This document shows, one piece after another, positions 47,583 through 60,672 of a stretch of DNA of 64,000 nucleotides. The notes below the pieces were generated by a model. That model saw only the letters and a program-made list of their open reading frames with translations. It searched no databases and was not told the DNA's origin. The stretch covers positions 1 to 64,000 of the forward strand of contig CACFOR010000002.1 in the NCBI GenBank assembly GCA_902567785.1, in the 5' to 3' direction. Position numbers and translations under genes: made by a program. The number at the start of each line of letters is the position of its first letter. The stretch's first letter is position 1. Origin of the DNA: an uncultured Pelagibacteraceae bacterium. Its GTDB lineage: Bacteria > Pseudomonadota > Alphaproteobacteria > Pelagibacterales > Pelagibacteraceae.

Positions 47583-48242
47583 ATGTCATCTATTAAAATT
47601 TCACCTTCAATTTTATCAGCTGATTTCAGCAAGCTTGGAAGTGAAATACAAGAGTTAGAAAAAGCAAAAGCTGATTGGATTCATATAGATGTAATGGATG
47701 GTCACTTTGTTCCAAATATTACAATTGGTCCAGATGTAATTAAAAAACTAAGAAAATATACATCATTGCCATTTGATGTTCATTTAATGATTTCTCCAGT
47801 TCACAATTTTATTAAAAATTTTGCAGATGCTGGAGCTGATATTATAACTATACATCCAGAAGCCACCACAGATTTAGTAAGTTCGATAAAGGAAATTAAA
47901 TCTTTTAATAAAAAAGTTGGAGTTTCATTAAATCCAGAAACTTCAATCGATAAAGTATTGCCAGTTTTAGATTCGATCGATTTAGTTTTAGTTATGAGTG
48001 TAAATCCAGGTTTTGGAGGTCAAAAATTTATTAAAGAAACTTTAAATAAAGTTAAAGCATTAAGAAAAGAAATTGATTCAAAAAAACTAAAAACATTAAT
48101 TGAAATAGATGGTGGTATAAATTTTGAAACTTCTATAATGGCAAAAAAAGCTGGCGTAGATATAATAGTTTCAGGAACAACAATTTTTAAGGAAAATCAG
48201 GGGAACTTAAAAAAAAATATTCAATTACTAAAAACAGGATAA
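47583..48242 (+). CDS. rpe: Ribulose-phosphate 3-epimerase
   Basis: A 219-residue TIM-barrel enzyme interconverting D-ribulose-5-phosphate and D-xylulose-5-phosphate. All metal-binding and catalytic segments are present: SPSILSADFSKLG, IHIDVMDGHFVPN, DVHLMISP, MSVNPGFGGQKF, and IEIDGGI. It is the housekeeping copy; a divergent second RPE domain occurs in a fusion at 55106-56173. Three bases separate it from the heparinase-like gene. Confidence 0.97.
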   Translation: MSSIKISPSILSADFSKLGSEIQELEKAKADWIHIDVMDGHFVPNITIGPDVIKKLRKYTSLPFDVHLMISPVHNFIKNFADAGADIITIHPEATTDLVSSIKEIKSFNKKVGVSLNPETSIDKVLPVLDSIDLVLVMSVNPGFGGQKFIKETLNKVKALRKEIDSKKLKTLIEIDGGINFETSIMAKKAGVDIIVSGTTIFKENQGNLKKNIQLLKTG

Positions 48243-52668: not shown

Positions 52669-53394
52669 TTAAAATACTTTTCTGAACTTTAATTTAATTA
52701 CCCCTATGATGAATAATAAACTAGTTTGAAAAATTCTCACACCTGAAACTTTAGCTTCTTTCCAAATAACAGGTACTTCGATGATTTTCATTTTTAACCC
52801 ATGAGCCAAAAACAACATCTCTGCTTCAAAAAAAAATTCATAATTCGAAATATAAAAGTATAACTGATCAAATGCACTTTTGTTAATTGCCTTAAACCCA
52901 CACTGAACATCTTTAATAGGTAATCTCAAAAACTTATTGATGAAAAAAACGTGATATATTTTAGACATAACATACCTCAGTAAAGATCTATTTATCTTCG
53001 ATGTTGGAAGATATCTTGAGCCTATTGCAAGGTCTGCACCCTCTCTAATTTCGTATAACAATTTATCAAAAGACTCTAATGAAGTAGAAAGATCCACATC
53101 CATATATGTTAATATATCAGCAGAACTATTTTTCCACGGATTGAGTACCCCATAACCTTTTCCCTGTTTTTCTGAATAAGTATAAATAACTGAATCATAA
53201 GTTTGGGAGATTAGTTTAGCTTTTTCTATAATTTTTTCAGCTTTTTTTCCATTTATAGAAATGATGATCTTAAATTCATATGGCCCCTTAATCTTTGTCA
53301 GATAATTTAGCAGTTCCTGTGTGGACTTCTCTAAAATTTCTATGTTGCCACGAAAAACAGGAAAAATAATATCAACTGTCCAAATCCTATTCAT
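52669..53394 (-). CDS. GT2 glycosyltransferase, dolichyl-/polyprenyl-phosphate sugar synthase-like
   Basis: A 241-residue GT-A enzyme: VDIIFPVFRGNIE at the N-terminus, EKQGKGYGVLNPW, the metal-binding YMDVDLSTS, IGSRYLPTSKINRSLLR and DVQCGFKAIN. These are marks of the DPM1 group, which transfers a sugar from a nucleotide to a polyprenyl phosphate. It has no C-terminal membrane domain. It overlaps the epimerase gene by four bases. The product would be a flippable lipid-sugar, fitting the GtrA proteins nearby. Confidence 0.88.
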   Translation of the reverse strand: MNRIWTVDIIFPVFRGNIEILEKSTQELLNYLTKIKGPYEFKIIISINGKKAEKIIEKAKLISQTYDSVIYTYSEKQGKGYGVLNPWKNSSADILTYMDVDLSTSLESFDKLLYEIREGADLAIGSRYLPTSKINRSLLRYVMSKIYHVFFINKFLRLPIKDVQCGFKAINKSAFDQLYFYISNYEFFFEAEMLFLAHGLKMKIIEVPVIWKEAKVSGVRIFQTSLLFIIGVIKLKFRKVF

Positions 53395-54260
53395 CTAATA
53401 ATTTTATATATTCCTTCCCTTGGTTCTGTAAATTTTAATCGAAAGATTTTTTCAGTCTCATCTACTATATATTCTTTATCTACTTTTAAATTATCTACCT
53501 GAGATTTCTGAAGAAAAGGAATTTTAAATAATGAAAATAATTTAGCGATTAAATAACTTATTGCGATTGGAATATGAACGACTATTCTCCTTTTTCCTAG
53601 TGTTTTCAAAATAAGATTAACAATATCTCTGTATGTTAAAGAATTTTTTCCCGCAATTAAATGAATTCCTGATATATCATATAATAAAGCAGAATTTATA
53701 CACTTGATGACATCTTCAACTGAAATTGGTTGTATTAATTGTTTTCCGTTTCCTATAACTGGAACAACAGGTAAACGTTTAACGAGCTCTATCAATAAAC
53801 CTATATCAGATTTATTTCCCTGACCATAAATTACTGTTGGTCTTAGAATAAGATGGTTACTATGTTTAATTACTTCTTGTTCAGCTTTTTTTTTTGAACT
53901 CGTATAATTATCCTTTCCTGGTAATTGAACAGTCTCACTACTTATATAGATAAACTTTTTTACATTATTTAAAAGTGCTGCCTCTACAAACTTTTTTGTA
54001 AAATCGACATTTATTTTAAATATGTCTGGATGATATGAAGATTTAATAGACAAGATATGAATTATTGCAAAAGTTTCATTAAACATATTCTTGTTAAACA
54101 CAGGATTTAAGAAGTCTATTTCATAATATTCGATGTTAGGGTCGTGATCGCGTGGTGAATCTGAACGGACGAGACATCTAATGTGGTAGGACATCTTGAT
54201 TTGTTTAATCAGATGGCGGCCAAGAAAACCAGATCCTCCTGTCAAAATTATATTACGCAT
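53391..54260 (-). CDS. NAD-dependent epimerase/dehydratase (extended SDR)
   Basis: A 289-residue extended short-chain dehydrogenase. The Rossmann motif is LTGGSGFLGRHLI at residues 5-17, the active-site pair is YTSSKKKAE (Tyr-x3-Lys), and RPTVIYGQGN is the usual substrate-side segment. I start at the ATG at 54258-54260, directly before the Rossmann strand; the frame extends 62 more codons upstream through a hydrophobic, non-conserved stretch in the divergent promoter region, which I reject. It probably modifies a nucleotide sugar. Confidence 0.88.
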   Translation of the reverse strand: MRNIILTGGSGFLGRHLIKQIKMSYHIRCLVRSDSPRDHDPNIEYYEIDFLNPVFNKNMFNETFAIIHILSIKSSYHPDIFKINVDFTKKFVEAALLNNVKKFIYISSETVQLPGKDNYTSSKKKAEQEVIKHSNHLILRPTVIYGQGNKSDIGLLIELVKRLPVVPVIGNGKQLIQPISVEDVIKCINSALLYDISGIHLIAGKNSLTYRDIVNLILKTLGKRRIVVHIPIAISYLIAKLFSLFKIPFLQKSQVDNLKVDKEYIVDETEKIFRLKFTEPREGIYKIIR

Positions 54261-54366
54261 AAAATTAAAATTTAAACCTTCTGTCCGCAAGATTAAAAAA
54301 AATATTATAAAACATGGTTTTTTGAAACGCAATGTAATTAAAGTAATTTGTTTTTGTTGAATTTTT

Positions 54367-54395
54367 TTGCAATATAAACTCATATAGAGTATCAA
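54367..54395 (+). promoter_or_regulatory. Candidate promoter of the araD-like operon
   Basis: TTGCAA (54367-54372) and TATCAA (54390-54395) are separated by 17 bases, fitting sigma-70 spacing. The start codon at 54405 would lie only a few bases after the expected transcription start, so the first gene could be nearly leaderless. In such AT-rich DNA chance matches are common, so confidence is low. Confidence 0.3.
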
Positions 54396-54404
54396 TAAAA
54401 TTAT

Positions 54405-55106
54405 ATGCAACATCAAAAGGAAATTATAAAAAAGTGTATTGATCAAAATAAACTATTGAATAAAAAAAAATTAACTATACAAACTTTTTCAAATGTTAGT
54501 ATAAAGTTAAATAAAAATTTTTTTACAATAAAACCAAGTGGAATGCGTCCTGAAGACATAAGGATAAAAAAATGTCCAATAATTAGAATAAATGATGGAA
54601 AAAAAGTATCTGGGTCTTATAATCCGTCAACTGATACTCCCACTCATCAAATTTTATATAAAAAATATCCTGAAATTAATAGTATTGCTCATACACATTC
54701 AAAATATGCCACGGCTTGGGCTCAATCAGGAAAATCTATACCCATTTATGGAACTACACATGCAGACTATTGGAAATCAGAAATACCAGTAACCAATTTT
54801 ATTAGTAAAAAAAAATTAAACAGTAATTATGAAGCTAATACGGGAAACCTAATTATTGAAACTTTAAAAAGAAAAAAATTAAATCCTCTTAATTGCCCTG
54901 GTGTAATTGTATCTGCTCATGGCGGTTTTTGTTGGGGAAAAAATCATACTGACGCAGTTAAAATGTCTGAACTTATGGAATTTATCGCGGAGTTAGCATA
55001 TTTTACTGAACAAATAAAAGTAAAAAAAAAAATACCTCAATATATAAGTAGGAAACATTATGAAAGAAAGTTTGGTAAAAAATCCTACTATGGCCAAAAG
55101 AATTAA
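54405..55106 (+). CDS. araD: L-ribulose-5-phosphate 4-epimerase (AraD/UlaF type)
   Basis: A 233-residue class II aldolase-fold enzyme. The zinc ligands are His96 and His98 in IAHTHSKYA and His172 in VSAHGGFCWG; Asp77 in NPSTDTPTH and Asp121 in THADYW correspond to AraD catalytic residues, and the C-terminal SYYGQK carries the family tyrosine. It should interconvert L-ribulose-5-phosphate and D-xylulose-5-phosphate. No arabinose transport or kinase genes are near, so a biosynthetic role in the surface-glycan cluster is more likely. It overlaps the next gene by one base. Confidence 0.9.
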   Translation: MQHQKEIIKKCIDQNKLLNKKKLTIQTFSNVSIKLNKNFFTIKPSGMRPEDIRIKKCPIIRINDGKKVSGSYNPSTDTPTHQILYKKYPEINSIAHTHSKYATAWAQSGKSIPIYGTTHADYWKSEIPVTNFISKKKLNSNYEANTGNLIIETLKRKKLNPLNCPGVIVSAHGGFCWGKNHTDAVKMSELMEFIAELAYFTEQIKVKKKIPQYISRKHYERKFGKKSYYGQKN

Positions 55107-56173
55107 TGATTATTGAAAAAAGTTTCCTAAAAGAAATAAATTTTTTTATTTATAAGAAAAAACATTTAATAGTATATATTTTTATTGGAATTTTATCTTT
55201 ATTAATAGAATTAGGAATTAGACGAGCATTATTAAAAATATATGATCCACATTCATTCTTACTTCATTTTTCAGTTTTATTTGGAATAATTTTTGCTTTT
55301 TATTTTAATATAAAGTTCAACTTTAATGTACCAAAACTATATCTAAAAAGATCTTTGATATATTTTATTATTATATCTTTAAGCTCGTATATTTTTCAAT
55401 ACTTTATTAAAAGCAAAATATTTTTTACAACTTTCAATTTTGAACAAACAAGATTTTTGATTTCTGGTATATTTTTTATAATTGCATATTTTTTTCATTT
55501 AAAATTTTCCTTCAAAGATAGTAGAAAAGTAGGTGTCGCAATATACGCTAATGGATACGAAGACATTAAAAAAATTTATGATAAAATTGGACTTTATCCA
55601 GATTTTATTCATGTAGATATTATTGATAAAACTATGAATCAGGCTGCATTAGATACTAAACTATCAAAATTGGAGGTAGTAAAAGCATATTGGCCAAATC
55701 ATGAAATACATACGCACATCATGTCAACAAATCCACTAAACTGTCTAGATGAAACTGTTTGTAAATTTTCAGACATAATATATTTTCACCACGAATGTTT
55801 GGATGATAAAAAGAAAATAATTGATAAAATAAAAAAATATAGAAAAATTCCTGGTGTTGTTCTTCATAGTGTAAATAATTATGAAAATTTAGAAAATATT
55901 GTCCAAGATTTTAATGAAATATTAGTTTTATCGATTGAAAAATGTGGTGTATCAGGTCAAAAATTTAACGAAACAACATTTAAATTAATTGATGATTTAA
56001 ATAGTTTAAATCAAAGAAAAAAATTTAAAATTTGTGTAGATGGTGGAGTAAAAAGTAATTTGATATCAAAATTTTCTAGTGAAAAAGTTGTTTCAGGCTC
56101 TGATGTTTTAAATAACAAAAATCCAAAGCAGCAAATTATGAGATTACAAACATTGTCTCGCTATGAAAAATGA
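55106..56173 (+). CDS. Fusion: GtrA-like membrane domain + ribulose-phosphate 3-epimerase domain
   Basis: A 355-residue two-domain protein. Residues about 20-137 are a four-span GtrA-like domain (YIFIGILSLLIELGIRR, then FAFYFNIKFNF, and a last span ending FHLKFSFKDSRK), a family thought to flip lipid-linked sugars. Residues 142-345 form an RPE-like TIM barrel with the metal ligands kept: FIHVDIID (His169, Asp171), THIM (His204) and CVDGGV (Asp312); the phosphate loop reads VVSGSDVL. It is much diverged from the housekeeping rpe in this window. It overlaps araD by one base and the next gene by 11. I know of no described protein with this domain pair. Confidence 0.85.
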   Translation: MIIEKSFLKEINFFIYKKKHLIVYIFIGILSLLIELGIRRALLKIYDPHSFLLHFSVLFGIIFAFYFNIKFNFNVPKLYLKRSLIYFIIISLSSYIFQYFIKSKIFFTTFNFEQTRFLISGIFFIIAYFFHLKFSFKDSRKVGVAIYANGYEDIKKIYDKIGLYPDFIHVDIIDKTMNQAALDTKLSKLEVVKAYWPNHEIHTHIMSTNPLNCLDETVCKFSDIIYFHHECLDDKKKIIDKIKKYRKIPGVVLHSVNNYENLENIVQDFNEILVLSIEKCGVSGQKFNETTFKLIDDLNSLNQRKKFKICVDGGVKSNLISKFSSEKVVSGSDVLNNKNPKQQIMRLQTLSRYEK

Positions 56174-57608
56174 AAAAAAAATATTACTTGGAAAAAAATT
56201 TGGAAATAATTTAATTAAAAAGTTATATGAGTTAGATGATGTCATATCTGTTACAATAGTTGGATCTTTTAGCAAAACTTATAATATAGATAAAATTGGA
56301 GATCTTGATGTTGTGGTAATTTGTAAAAAAATTACAAATAAAATACTTACATCATCAAAAAATAAAATAAAAAAACTTAAAAATAAATATCCAGAAATTA
56401 ATAAAAAATTAAAAATCAATAATACTTTTGGTCCAGTAAAATACGATTCAAAAAAAAATTTAGTCATACACTTAATGATATACGACATTAAAGGTCATAC
56501 TGAGCATGCTATTAAAAGCCCGTTTACATGCTACGATTGGCAAAGAAGTAAATGGTATAAAGGAAAAAAACTAGACGAAATATTTCCTGTACAAAATCTT
56601 TATTTAAGAGATTTTTTTGAGGCACGTAGAAATATCAACGAATATATTAGTGATCTTCAAAAAAATTGTATTTCGATTAGAAAATATAAAATTATTAAAA
56701 AAAATATAATTTTAAAGAAAAGTAATTATAAGATTAATTCAAAGAACAAAGGAGAATTTATATTTCACATAATTTATAATTTGATTAATAATTATAACAA
56801 ATTTTATGTTAATAAAAATATAAAAATTTCTAATAAAAATTTTTATAAACTTTTTCTAAAAATAACAAATAATGATAAGACTCTATTACTTAAATTTTTA
56901 GAATTAAGAAAGCAAAAGATTAATTTAAAAATTAATAATGGAGATGAATATCAAAATTTAATTAAAAAATTTTTAAAATATTATAATAAATTCATAAAAA
57001 AAATTAAAACTAAATTTAATACAATAATCTTTTTAAGACATGCAAAAACATTTGAGAATAAAAAGATTTTTTTGGGCCAAGGAAATGATCCCGATATTAT
57101 TAAAAGGCCAAAATTAAAATCAAAAGATAATTTTGACGTTATTTTTACTAGTCAATTAAAAAGATCAATATCTACTGCAAAAAATTTTAGATCTAAAAAA
57201 CTTTATGTTAATAAAAATCTGAATGAAATTAATTACGGAAAAGCAGAAGGTTTAACAATAAAAGAGTACGAAAAAAAATTTCCTTGGAAAATTAAATTAT
57301 GGAAGAATTCAATTGATACAAAATTTCCACAGGGTGAAAATACTAAAAATGTGGAACAAAGAATTTTTTATTTTATTAAAAATGTTATTCTTAACAAAAA
57401 AAATGTATCAAAAAAAATTCTTGTTATTACTCACAATGTTGTCTTAAGATGCTTAATTGGATATTGCTGTAAAATCGATCTAAAAAATTATTTTAAATTA
57501 AATATTCCTCATATGGAATATTTTCATTTTATTATTAAAAATAATAATATTTTTCCAAATTTTAAAAGAAAAAATTTAAAAAAAGTGCTAATGAAATTAT
57601 ATGACTAA
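56163..57608 (+). CDS. Fusion: nucleotidyltransferase domain + histidine phosphatase domain
   Basis: A 481-residue two-domain protein. Residues about 10-110 carry a polymerase-beta-type nucleotidyltransferase signature: VGSFSKTYNIDKIGDLDVVVI, with Gly34-Ser35 and acidic Asp47/Asp49. A lysine/asparagine-rich helical middle follows (150-280). Residues 286-460 are a histidine phosphatase: FLRHAKTFEN (Arg292, His293), SQLKRSIST (Arg334), LNEINYGKAEG (Glu355), and VITHNVVLR (His424), so all core residues are present. It overlaps both neighbours (11 and 8 bases). The pairing suggests nucleotidyl transfer coupled to phosphate removal; the substrate is unknown. Confidence 0.82.
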   Translation: MKNEKKILLGKKFGNNLIKKLYELDDVISVTIVGSFSKTYNIDKIGDLDVVVICKKITNKILTSSKNKIKKLKNKYPEINKKLKINNTFGPVKYDSKKNLVIHLMIYDIKGHTEHAIKSPFTCYDWQRSKWYKGKKLDEIFPVQNLYLRDFFEARRNINEYISDLQKNCISIRKYKIIKKNIILKKSNYKINSKNKGEFIFHIIYNLINNYNKFYVNKNIKISNKNFYKLFLKITNNDKTLLLKFLELRKQKINLKINNGDEYQNLIKKFLKYYNKFIKKIKTKFNTIIFLRHAKTFENKKIFLGQGNDPDIIKRPKLKSKDNFDVIFTSQLKRSISTAKNFRSKKLYVNKNLNEINYGKAEGLTIKEYEKKFPWKIKLWKNSIDTKFPQGENTKNVEQRIFYFIKNVILNKKNVSKKILVITHNVVLRCLIGYCCKIDLKNYFKLNIPHMEYFHFIIKNNNIFPNFKRKNLKKVLMKLYD

Positions 57609-58209
57609 AATTGCAATTTTCATATTGCCGAAAAATAAAATAAAAAGAAAAATTTCTCTTTTGAAGAAAAAAGTGAAGAAAAATTTTGGTCAGCAACCTT
57701 ATTTGTCTCATCCTCCTCACTGTACTTTGTTTACGATGAATGTTTCTAGAAATATTTTAAACAAAAAAAAATATTTAAATAATTTTGAATTAAATACCAA
57801 CTATAAAAATTTTTTTAAAATTATAAAACCAGACATATTTTATAATGACCCTATTACCAGAGGTAGAACAATTTTTTTTAAAATTAAAAAAAATTCTTTT
57901 TTAGAAATATTGCAGTTAAAATTATTAAAAGAATTTTCCAAATATAAAAAGAAGGATATTGGTAAAAAATTTAAATTTAAGTGGATGAATATAAACAATA
58001 GAAAATATGGCTATCCTTTTGTGGGAAATCGATGGAAGCCTCATTTTACTATTGCATCTTTAAAAAATACACAAAACGATAAACAATTCATAAAAAATTT
58101 TTTAAAAATAAAAATTAAAGCTAAAATTCCTATAAAAAAAGTCCATATCTATAAATTAATTAAAGAAAGACACATATATTTATGGAGTATTAATATAAAA
58201 TTAAAATGA
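57601..58209 (+). CDS. 2H phosphoesterase superfamily protein (LigT-like)
   Basis: A 202-residue very basic protein. The two 2H motifs are His40-Cys-Thr42 in HPPHCTLFT and His148-Phe-Thr150 in KPHFTIAS, spaced as in 2'-5' RNA ligase/cyclic phosphodiesterase proteins. The family opens or forms 2',3'- or 1'',2''-cyclic phosphodiesters. In this cluster it would more likely act on a pentose or nucleotide phosphate than on RNA, which is inference. It overlaps the previous gene by eight bases and the next by four. Confidence 0.75.
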   Translation: MTKIAIFILPKNKIKRKISLLKKKVKKNFGQQPYLSHPPHCTLFTMNVSRNILNKKKYLNNFELNTNYKNFFKIIKPDIFYNDPITRGRTIFFKIKKNSFLEILQLKLLKEFSKYKKKDIGKKFKFKWMNINNRKYGYPFVGNRWKPHFTIASLKNTQNDKQFIKNFLKIKIKAKIPIKKVHIYKLIKERHIYLWSINIKLK

Positions 58210-58952
58210 TGAGTGTTAGATTAATCAATATTATGCCAATGGCTGGAGAAGGAAAAAGATTCAGGGATGAAGGATATAAAGATCCCAAACCTCTTATAAA
58301 AATTAATGGAGAAAGTATGTTTATAAGATCTGCAAAATGTATGCCAAAAGCTGATCTGTGGATATTTATAATACGAGAAGAATTTTTAAACGATAAATCT
58401 TTTGAAAAACAAATAATTAATAATTTTAAAAACTACAAAATCATTTCAATAAAAAATACTACAGAAGGACAAGCTTCTACTTGTTATTTAGCAAAAAAAT
58501 ATTTACAGCAAAATGATCAAATTTTTATAAGCTCATGTGATAACTACTTTGAACTTAATCATAAAGAATATACTAAAAAATTGTCGAAACATGATATTTT
58601 AGTATTCACAACTAATTCCCAAGAAATACATGTTAAAAATCCAAATTTATTTGGATGGGTAAGTGATGAAAATGAAAAAATTCAAGTTTCATGCAAAAAA
58701 CAAATCAGCCAAAATCCTAATAAAGATAGGATTATAATAGGATCCTTCTTTTTTAAAAATCTATCTTTTTTTGAAAAATCAATTCAATCATTATTTAAAA
58801 AAAGGAAAAAAATAAACGGAGAATATTATATGGATATGACCATATCTGAAGCTATCTCCTTAGGTTTAAATGTTGGTGAAGTAAATGTACAAAATTACAT
58901 AAGTTGGGGTAGTCATAAAGAATTGGAAAGTTGGAGAAAAAAAAATTCTTAA
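58206..58952 (+). CDS. Sugar-phosphate nucleotidyltransferase
   Basis: A 248-residue GT-A-like NTP transferase. The N-terminal nucleotide loop is PMAGEGKRFRDEGYKDPKPLI, with Gly-x-Gly-x-Arg and the Pro-Lys-Pro-Leu segment. The metal aspartate lies in ISSCDNYFEL, and NGEYYMDMTISEA is the usual late motif. It should make an NDP-sugar or NDP-polyol from a phosphate. A start at the second ATG (58209) is equally possible. Base and sugar specificity cannot be read. Confidence 0.87.
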   Translation: MMSVRLINIMPMAGEGKRFRDEGYKDPKPLIKINGESMFIRSAKCMPKADLWIFIIREEFLNDKSFEKQIINNFKNYKIISIKNTTEGQASTCYLAKKYLQQNDQIFISSCDNYFELNHKEYTKKLSKHDILVFTTNSQEIHVKNPNLFGWVSDENEKIQVSCKKQISQNPNKDRIIIGSFFFKNLSFFEKSIQSLFKKRKKINGEYYMDMTISEAISLGLNVGEVNVQNYISWGSHKELESWRKKNS

Positions 58953-58959
58953 AAAAATA

Positions 58960-59352
58960 ATGAAAATATTTAATTTTTTTGAGATTTATAAATTTATTAT
59001 AATAGGAATTATCTCAGTTTCCATAGATGGGTTTCTTTATTATTTATTAGGTAATCTTGAATTATTCACTTATGAAATTTCAAAAAGAATAAGTTTTATA
59101 TGTGGTGCCGCTTTTGCTTTTATTTTCAATAGAAGTTATGTTTTTCAGGCTGAGCATAAAAATATTCCTCAAGTTATAGGTTTTAGTATTTTGTACTTTA
59201 TATCATTTTGGTGCAATGCTATTTCTCATGATTTAGTGTTAGATAAGTTTAATATTCCTTTAATTGCTTTTTTAATAGCAACCGCAATATCAACTATTAT
59301 TAATTATTTGGGTCAAAAATTTGTTATTTTTAAAAAAGTAGTGAAAAAATAG
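58960..59352 (+). CDS. GtrA-like membrane protein
   Basis: A 130-residue four-span protein with the GtrA pattern: YKFIIIGIISVSIDGFLYYLL, CGAAFAFIFNRSYVFQ, and TIINYLGQKFVIFKK at the end. GtrA proteins are candidate flippases for polyprenyl-phosphate-linked sugars. This is the second GtrA domain in the cluster, the first being fused to an epimerase. It lies seven bases behind the nucleotidyltransferase gene and 23 before a GT2 gene. Confidence 0.88.
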   Translation: MKIFNFFEIYKFIIIGIISVSIDGFLYYLLGNLELFTYEISKRISFICGAAFAFIFNRSYVFQAEHKNIPQVIGFSILYFISFWCNAISHDLVLDKFNIPLIAFLIATAISTIINYLGQKFVIFKKVVKK

Positions 59353-59375: not shown

Positions 59376-60086
59376 ATGAAAAAATTAAGCTTAATATTAC
59401 CTTGCTATAATGAAAGCAAAAATATTGAAAATTTATTAAATTTGTTAAATGAATTAAAAAAAAAAAGTGATATAGAAATTATCATAGTTGAAAATGGTTC
59501 CACAGATGATTCACTAAAAAAAATTAAAAATCATATAATTTATAAAAATAATTCTATTATATTAGTCGAAATAAAAAATAATTTGGGGTATGGTTATGGA
59601 ATTATGGCCGGAGTTAATAAAGCAAAAGGTGACTATATTGGATGGTGCCACGCTGATCTTCAAAATAATTTAGAAGATGTTTATGATTCTTTTAAAAAAA
59701 ATTTTAATGAATTAGAAAAAACAAATTCAATTTTAAAAGGAAAAAGAATTAGTAGAAATTTAATCGATAAATTATTTACACTAGGTATGAGTATTTGCGT
59801 CACTATGATATTCGGGCATAAATTAAGGGATATAAACGCACAGCCAAAAATTTTTCCCAGAAATTTTCTAACCCAAATTAAAGAACCTCCTAATGACTTT
59901 TCTCTTGATTTATATATTTTATTAGTTGCTAAAATAAAAAATTATAAAATTATAGAGCATCCATTAAAAATTTATGAAAGAGTAGCTGGGGAAGCAAAAG
60001 GTGGTGGTTCTTTATTATTAAAAATAAAATTAACCTTAAGGACATTGAAATATATTTTTGACTTAAAAAAAAATAAAAAATTCTAA
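59376..60086 (+). CDS. GT2 family glycosyltransferase
   Basis: A 236-residue GT-A enzyme: LSLILPCYNESKNIENLL, IIVENGSTDDS, NNLGYGYGIMAGVNKAKGDYIGWCHADLQ (in two parts, residues about 68-100), and DINAQPKIFPR. The DxD site reads HADLQ, as in the polyprenyl-phosphate sugar synthase subgroup. No membrane domain is attached. With the preceding GtrA gene it forms a classic GtrA/GT2 pair that makes and flips a lipid-linked sugar. Confidence 0.9.
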   Translation: MKKLSLILPCYNESKNIENLLNLLNELKKKSDIEIIIVENGSTDDSLKKIKNHIIYKNNSIILVEIKNNLGYGYGIMAGVNKAKGDYIGWCHADLQNNLEDVYDSFKKNFNELEKTNSILKGKRISRNLIDKLFTLGMSICVTMIFGHKLRDINAQPKIFPRNFLTQIKEPPNDFSLDLYILLVAKIKNYKIIEHPLKIYERVAGEAKGGGSLLLKIKLTLRTLKYIFDLKKNKKF

Positions 60087-60087
60087 A

Positions 60088-60672
60088 ATGGAAATAATTA
60101 TTCATAGAGTAAACAAATTAGAAGAATTAATTAAGTTGCCAAAAGAATATGGTACTGAAATTGATTTAAGAACTAAAGGATCTAAGATAATTCTGAACCA
60201 CGAACCTTTCAAAGATGGATGTAATTTTATTGATTATATTGAAAATTATAATCACGGGACTTTAGTTTTAAATATAAAGGAAGCAGGAATTGAAGATGAA
60301 GTTATAAAAATTGTGAAAAATAAAAAAATAAATTCTTATTTCCTTTTAGATGTAGAAATGCCATATCTTCACTCTTCATCTAATAGTGGAAATAGAAATA
60401 TAGCTATTAGATTTTCAGAATATGAAAGTATTAAAACTGTAGAATTTTTTACTAAACTTGTAAGTTGGATATGGATAGATACTGTAAATGAACTACCAAT
60501 AAAAAAAGAACACATAAAATTAATATCTAATTTTAAAAGTTGCTTAGTTTGTCCAGAAAGATGGGGTAGAAAAAATGATATTAAAGTTTATAAAAAAAAA
60601 TTAGAAGAAATGAAATATAAACCTAATGCGGTAATGACAAGTCAGGAGTGTGTGGAACTCTGGAAATCTTAA
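60088..60672 (+). CDS. Glycerophosphodiester phosphodiesterase-like protein (PLC superfamily)
   Basis: A 194-residue TIM-barrel protein. The N-terminus keeps GDPD metal/catalytic residues: His6-Arg7 in IIHRVNK, Glu24 and Asp26 in TEIDLRTKG, and His38 in ILNHEPF. The later metal strand reads LVLNIKEAG, with Asn where GDPDs usually have Glu, so the activity may differ. It starts one base after the GT2 stop and ends overlapping the convergent SGNH gene by four bases. A role on phosphodiester-linked glycan or glycerol groups is plausible. Confidence 0.78.
   Translation: MEIIIHRVNKLEELIKLPKEYGTEIDLRTKGSKIILNHEPFKDGCNFIDYIENYNHGTLVLNIKEAGIEDEVIKIVKNKKINSYFLLDVEMPYLHSSSNSGNRNIAIRFSEYESIKTVEFFTKLVSWIWIDTVNELPIKKEHIKLISNFKSCLVCPERWGRKNDIKVYKKKLEEMKYKPNAVMTSQECVELWKS

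Follow-up and report, generated by a model that had tools for sequence, protein, structure and literature searches.

What could a protein do in which a membrane domain of the GtrA type is joined to a barrel of the ribulose-phosphate 3-epimerase (RPE) type? The question is raised by a locus in a 64,000-nucleotide stretch of Pelagibacteraceae DNA (the window), where the plus-strand frame at 55106-56173 starts with ATG, runs without interruption through 355 codons (355 residues) and has its stop ending at 56173. The initial annotation had recognized the two halves in this single frame and had proposed that the fusion may hold a pentose epimerase at the membrane, so that its product goes straight into a lipid-linked glycan. 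The two-part frame is borne out by the profiles, the structural model and the twelve further copies described below. Our own reading, to which we assign a probability of roughly 55%, is that the protein is a membrane-tethered phosphoketose epimerase within a cassette for the synthesis of a pentulose-derived sugar linked to polyprenyl phosphate, which would then be offered to a periplasmic glycosyltransferase. It builds on the fusion as observed, its fold, its metal ligands, its constant partners and the purifying selection on both halves. The protein is a variant of known domain families not described in the searched literature. As had been suspected, that literature (subscription literature lay outside its scope) gave no description of a GtrA-RPE fusion, or of an RPE/AraD capsule locus.

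Concerning the reality of the fusion, a search for the same domain order elsewhere returned twelve further full-length copies, eleven from Alphaproteobacteria and one from Bacteroidota. The carriers comprise some marine bacteria of the SAR11 group and a few others. Eight other genomes of the window's family hold full-length copies with 40-64% identity, and a scan of species-level genomes added one Pelagibacteraceae assembly, two alphaproteobacterial assemblies and one Haliscomenobacteraceae MAG; the species-level collection labels the hosts of the window's family Pelagibacteraceae/Pelagibacterales. Neither a stop nor a frameshift separates the domains in any of the 13 copies. An artefact is ruled out because the twelve further full-length copies are independent, and a sequencing or assembly error fusing neighbouring genes was rejected because thirteen assemblies, among which single-cell genomes are numerous, share the junction, always with a short, constant linker free of stops. 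The fusion is rare, occurring besides the window in 7 of 396 sampled family members and in none of 384 other sampled genomes of the class. A phage or plasmid origin was also rejected, since collections of phage, plasmid and viral contigs contained no full-length copy. The pairwise dN/dS values of each half lie at about 0.06-0.4, with most weight on the close pairs, as the distant ones are near synonymous saturation; judged from these ratios, both halves are under purifying selection.

An AlphaFold2 model of the fusion was based on the thirteen-sequence alignment (mean pLDDT 88, pTM 0.82). The four hydrophobic spans of GtrA type noticed earlier are present in it as four long helices (residues 19-45, 51-72, 77-102 and 112-135), and a link of about five residues leads to an alpha/beta barrel that begins at residue 141. 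Charge counts under the positive-inside rule assign the N-terminus, the loop between TM2 and TM3 and the beginning of the barrel to the cytoplasm. Because of this charge distribution, the barrel is predicted to face the cytoplasm, where phosphosugars are.

The C-terminal half of the window protein matches the Pfam family Ribul_P_3_epim (PF00834) well over its cut-off (77.7 bits against 21.1, E 9.9e-22), the same profile matches all 13 copies, and in the model this half takes the complete RPE-type TIM-barrel fold. In a PDB comparison with the full fusion model, in which the matched region was residues 138-353 only, the barrel superposed on human RPE with D-xylulose 5-phosphate (3ovr) with a Z of 24.4 over 207 residues at 2.4 Å. 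The best solved matches are RPEs (Z 23-24), D-allulose-6-phosphate 3-epimerase reaches 22.0, and the next family 18.9. His169, Asp171, His204 and Asp312, claimed at the outset as the RPE metal ligands, are invariant in 13 of 13 copies, and the phosphate-loop glycines are fully or almost fully conserved, even between copies with 40% identity and in both phyla. The barrel thus shares with RPE (PF00834) the fold, the metal ligands, the acid/base Asp pair and the phosphate loops. On the other hand, it is tethered to the membrane, coexists with a normal RPE, misses the TIGR01163 RPE equivalog by far (78.7 bits against a cut-off of 212.6) and lacks the canonical SPSIL and DGHFVPN, which are replaced by VAIYA and by DKTMN-type sequences, respectively. 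Two of the three active-site Met positions are also changed. The original label of ribulose-phosphate 3-epimerase consequently stands for fold, family and ligands, and fails at the substrate motifs and the equivalog cut-off.

Taken as a whole, the barrel is probably an active epimerase domain of the RPE superfamily, with C3 epimerization of some phosphoketose as its likely reaction. It is quite possible, although we do not favour it, that the domain acts on a different phosphoketose, such as an L-pentulose 5-phosphate or a hexulose phosphate, and that the glycan sugar does not come from D-Ru5P/D-Xu5P. The altered SPSIL, DGHFVPN and Met positions are in line with this, and the match to D-allulose-6-phosphate epimerase implies that the fold accepts other substrates; yet the NCBIfam and structure scores slightly favour RPE over AlsE, and the neighbouring AraD uses pentulose 5-phosphates. 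A housekeeping RPE relocated to the membrane was rejected, because hosts carry a separate canonical RPE. In the window it lies at 47583-48242, on the strand of the fusion gene and some 7 kb upstream of it, and it is found in seven of the eight hosts, the eighth genome being incomplete.

The fusion gene is the second member of a conserved seven-part cassette that comprises AraD, GtrA-RPE, a nucleotidyltransferase-histidine phosphatase, a 2H phosphoesterase, an NTP transferase, a GT2 and a GDPD-like protein (Table 1). The same six partners stand beside the fusion in all ten loci that are long enough; the other three of the 13 run off contig ends and were left out of this count. The cassette genes of the window overlap, as in an operon: the AraD stop TAA and the ATG of the fusion share a base (TAATG), and fusion and following gene have 11 bases in common. 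Flanking genes vary between genomes and the cassette lies at differing chromosomal sites, which indicates a mobile, horizontally spread unit. The Bacteroidota cassette (L056) has the same gene set with a changed order and two proteins fused. At L056:11004-13055, a single protein of 683 residues unites the nucleotidyltransferase, the histidine phosphatase and the 2H phosphoesterase, in support of a joint function of the three.

Table 1. Cassette features in the window, with the domains of the fusion protein given separately
Feature	Position	Strand	Evidence
AraD-type L-ribulose-5-phosphate 4-epimerase	54405..55106	+	NCBIfam PRK08193, 258.6 bits (cut-off 257); 1jdi, E 6e-55
GtrA-type four-helix membrane domain, fusion residues 1-137	55106..55516	+	model, profiles, charges, alignment
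RPE-type TIM barrel, fusion residues 138-355, ligands H169/D171/H204/D312	55517..56173	+	Pfam, alignment, structure match
Nucleotidyltransferase-like N-terminal domain and histidine phosphatase domain	56163..57608	+	profiles, alignment; 11-base overlap with fusion gene
2H phosphoesterase-like protein, two HxT/S motifs conserved	57601..58209	+	profiles, alignment
Sugar nucleotidyltransferase, NTP_transferase family	58206..58952	+	profiles
Stand-alone GtrA	58960..59352	+	PF04138, E 5e-17
GT2, ArnC/DPM-synthase/GtrB group, likely polyprenyl-phosphate sugar synthase	59376..60086	+	profiles
GDPD-like TIM-barrel protein, HR, ExD and H positions conserved	60088..60672	+	model pLDDT 94; Foldseek

The AraD protein matches E. 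coli AraD (1jdi) over its full length. Invariant in nine copies are N30, K43, D77, H96, H98, T117/T118, D121, E143, H172, H218 and Y229, which we take to be the catalytic residues of the E. coli L-Ru5P 4-epimerase. Since all of these are kept, interconversion of L-Ru5P and D-Xu5P can soundly be inferred for the protein, and interconversion of Ru5P, Xu5P and L-Ru5P by the cassette is plausible. L-arabinose isomerase was found in none of the eight host genomes, most of which are incomplete (the best, G108, at 97%), and a role of AraD in arabinose catabolism in these hosts is therefore unlikely. Just upstream, the SDR frame listed at 53391-54446 starts at a doubtful TTG and overlaps AraD; its likelier start is an ATG near 54260 (MRNIILTGGSGFLGRHL).

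As for the remaining members, the nearest solved relatives of the histidine phosphatase domain include phosphoserine phosphatase and fructose-2,6-bisphosphatase, and the best Foldseek matches of the GDPD-like protein are GDPDs (E 1.8e-4). Phosphatase domain, 2H protein and GDPD-like protein hint at steps of phosphate-ester chemistry before the donor is formed, in an order that is conjecture. Profile matches of the GT2 are to ArnC (1.5e-19), DPMS (3.5e-18) and GtrB sll0501 (4.7e-18), and its closest solved relatives make undecaprenyl- or dolichyl-phosphate sugars. Because ArnC, DPM synthase and GtrB all make polyprenyl-phosphate sugars, the GT2 together with the GtrA-type domain points to a lipid-linked donor that would be exported for periplasmic glycosylation.

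In the pathway that we propose, a pentulose 5-phosphate would be epimerized at C3 by the RPE domain and at C4 by AraD, and the phosphatase and phosphoesterase enzymes would then reshape the epimerized sugar phosphate. The NTP transferase would activate the sugar, the GT2 would load it onto polyprenyl phosphate, and the GtrA domain would either flip the lipid-linked sugar or hold the complex together. It is the substrate, the order of the enzymes, the flipping and the glycan acceptor that we infer here. The initial annotation's membrane-held pentose epimerase is retained in this scheme, taking into account the cytoplasm-facing barrel and the AraD, nucleotidyltransferase and GT2 of the cassette. 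Direct entry of the product into a lipid-linked glycan had to be given up, since the intervening steps encoded by the cassette include at least activation and transfer to the lipid. Because these two steps intervene before the lipid-linked sugar, the fusion would co-localize early and late steps and not couple adjacent ones.

The GtrA assignment of the membrane domain held in part when profiles were searched. PF04138 (GtrA_DPMS_TM) gave no match over the cut-off on the window protein itself. On the other hand, four of the 13 family members passed the cut-off of 26.1 over the whole profile (42.0, 40.1, 33.4 and 31.6 bits), and a profile of the thirteen N-terminal domains matched a stand-alone GtrA profile with an E of 2.6e-5 and a probability of 75%. 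Seventeen positions of the domain are invariant among the copies. With GtrA, GtcA and Rv3789 (PF04138) the domain has in common the four helices, the N-in/C-in topology, the profile match in orthologues and the Ala, Asn and Phe positions of TM2 and the following loop. Differences are the C-terminal enzyme of the fusion and the loss of equivalents of GtcA R95 and N132 (PMC7389260), both of which are essential in Listeria GtcA (Rismondo et al., PMC7389260). By spacing and the alignment of stand-alone GtrAs, and without the GtcA sequence, these two positions correspond in the fusions to Ser91 and Ala/Gly/Ser/Ile127; GtcA A65, N69, F74, F91 and F141 all have counterparts. Whether GtrA proteins flip or anchor is disputed, an anchor role having been proposed for Rv3789, and biochemical evidence for flipping by GtcA is lacking according to the same paper (PMC7389260). 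The fusion bears on this dispute, as it is a naturally occurring case of a GtrA domain covalently joined to an enzyme of donor synthesis.

We consider it rather unlikely that the GtrA domain is an anchor or scaffold beside the membrane enzymes of the cassette, with flipping left to the stand-alone GtrA or to another transporter. Such a role would agree with the replacement of both GtcA-essential positions in every fusion, given that the stand-alone GtrA of the window retains the TM4 Asn equivalent to N132 (without the Arg), and with the earlier proposal for Rv3789 (reported in PMC7389260). The window and L058 are the only two cassettes to contain a stand-alone GtrA (51% identity between them). 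However, the stand-alone GtrAs of the cassette system also lack an R95 equivalent, and R95 and N132 are for this reason perhaps not diagnostic here. Furthermore, no stand-alone GtrA was detected in seven of the eight hosts, one of them 97% complete, although a different flippase family is possible, and the seventeen invariant positions exceed what a plain anchor would need. Between flipping and anchoring, we lean modestly towards flipping. Concerning the other half of the protein, diverged substrate motifs could also fit a non-catalytic RPE-like domain that senses or binds a phosphosugar, but with all four metal ligands, including both acid/base Asp residues, invariant and the phosphate-loop glycines (nearly) so across 40% identity and two phyla, this is highly improbable.

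Against our main reading of a membrane-tethered phosphoketose epimerase in a donor-forming cassette stand the loss of the RPE substrate motifs, the missed equivalog, the replaced R95 and N132 positions and the extra stand-alone GtrA in the window and L058. In addition, the conserved part of the cassette includes no isomerase, mutase or reductase that would lead from a pentulose 5-phosphate to a usual sugar 1-phosphate, and no shared GT-C partner was recognized. In favour of the reading, a PMT_2-type transferase follows the Bacteroidota cassette, but it is the only adjacent polytopic protein that matches a transferase family; the polytopic proteins adjoining cassettes showed no mutual relatedness by BLAST, and none lies beside the window cassette. 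A homologue of the 615-residue polytopic protein that adjoins the cassette in L042 is apparently split into three frames at L043:6795-8629, by decay or sequencing error.

Gtr three-component glycosylation uses a GtrA flippase, a GtrB-type GT2 and a GT-C transferase (PMC11127046). The cassette likewise pairs a GtrA-type domain with a GtrB/ArnC-like GT2, but adds epimerases, a phosphatase and a nucleotidyltransferase that would serve a donor of its own, and it has no fixed GT-C partner. The nearest described system is the three-component pentofuranose pathway, known from Citrobacter youngae and mycobacterial arabinan synthesis, which relies on PRPP, a polyprenyl phosphoribose synthase and a MATE protein (PMC11127046). 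The two are alike, in principle, in the five-carbon sugar, the polyprenyl-phosphate donor and the dedicated epimerase. They differ in that polyprenyl phosphoribose synthase and MATE families are absent among the cassette proteins by Pfam, and in that epimerization in the cassette would precede lipid transfer and take place on the phosphosugar.

Although rare, xylulose is a genuine building block of bacterial surface glycans and has been reported in those of E. coli O95, Yersinia enterocolitica O:10, Campylobacter jejuni RM1221 and Devosia submarina, the last a marine alphaproteobacterium (PMC8707391). In the searched literature we found no description of a route to activated xylulose, and its presence in known glycans makes it a concrete candidate product for the cassette. 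The cassette could help to explain how rare ketose sugars enter bacterial surface glycans, and since it combines AraD and an RPE-type domain with a nucleotidyltransferase and a polyprenyl-phosphate GT2, the question of the xylulose donor becomes testable with seven genes. A bolder proposal, which we put forward tentatively and think unlikely to hold in full, is that the cassette is the first recognized route to a polyprenyl-phosphate-linked or nucleotide-activated pentulose (e.g. xylulose or L-ribulose), its epimerase fused to its own flippase, and that other Proteobacteria have related GT2/NTP-transferase/GDPD sets in which different phosphoketose enzymes serve other ketoses. If true, the proposal would account for how the ketofuranose residues of known bacterial glycans are made, a biosynthesis that is so far missing.

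When 349 genomes of the phylum were surveyed with the GDPD-like profile, six gave a match in addition to the window. In several of these, the GDPD-like gene is accompanied by an NTP transferase and/or GT2 of the same kinds and by other phosphosugar enzymes, namely aldolase-II proteins, a membrane protein with a phosphoribulokinase-type domain and HAD phosphatases. In this company, the cassette has the look of a single variant of a wider theme, apparently undescribed, in which a GtrB-like transferase is supplied by phosphoketose enzymes. Two large proteins were noted at such loci. The one at L070:3775-7656 has 1293 residues; it begins with a kinase-like P-loop part, continues with an FBA class II aldolase region and ends in an RPE domain that keeps the metal ligands, and it adjoins NTP transferase, GT2 and GDPD-like genes. 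The other, at L068:7808-9889, has 693 residues, of which 400-577 form a phosphoribulokinase/uridine kinase domain; a HAD phosphatase comes next. The protein lies near GT2 and GDPD-type genes of the same kinds, and proteins of similar size are present in L067, L069 and L071.
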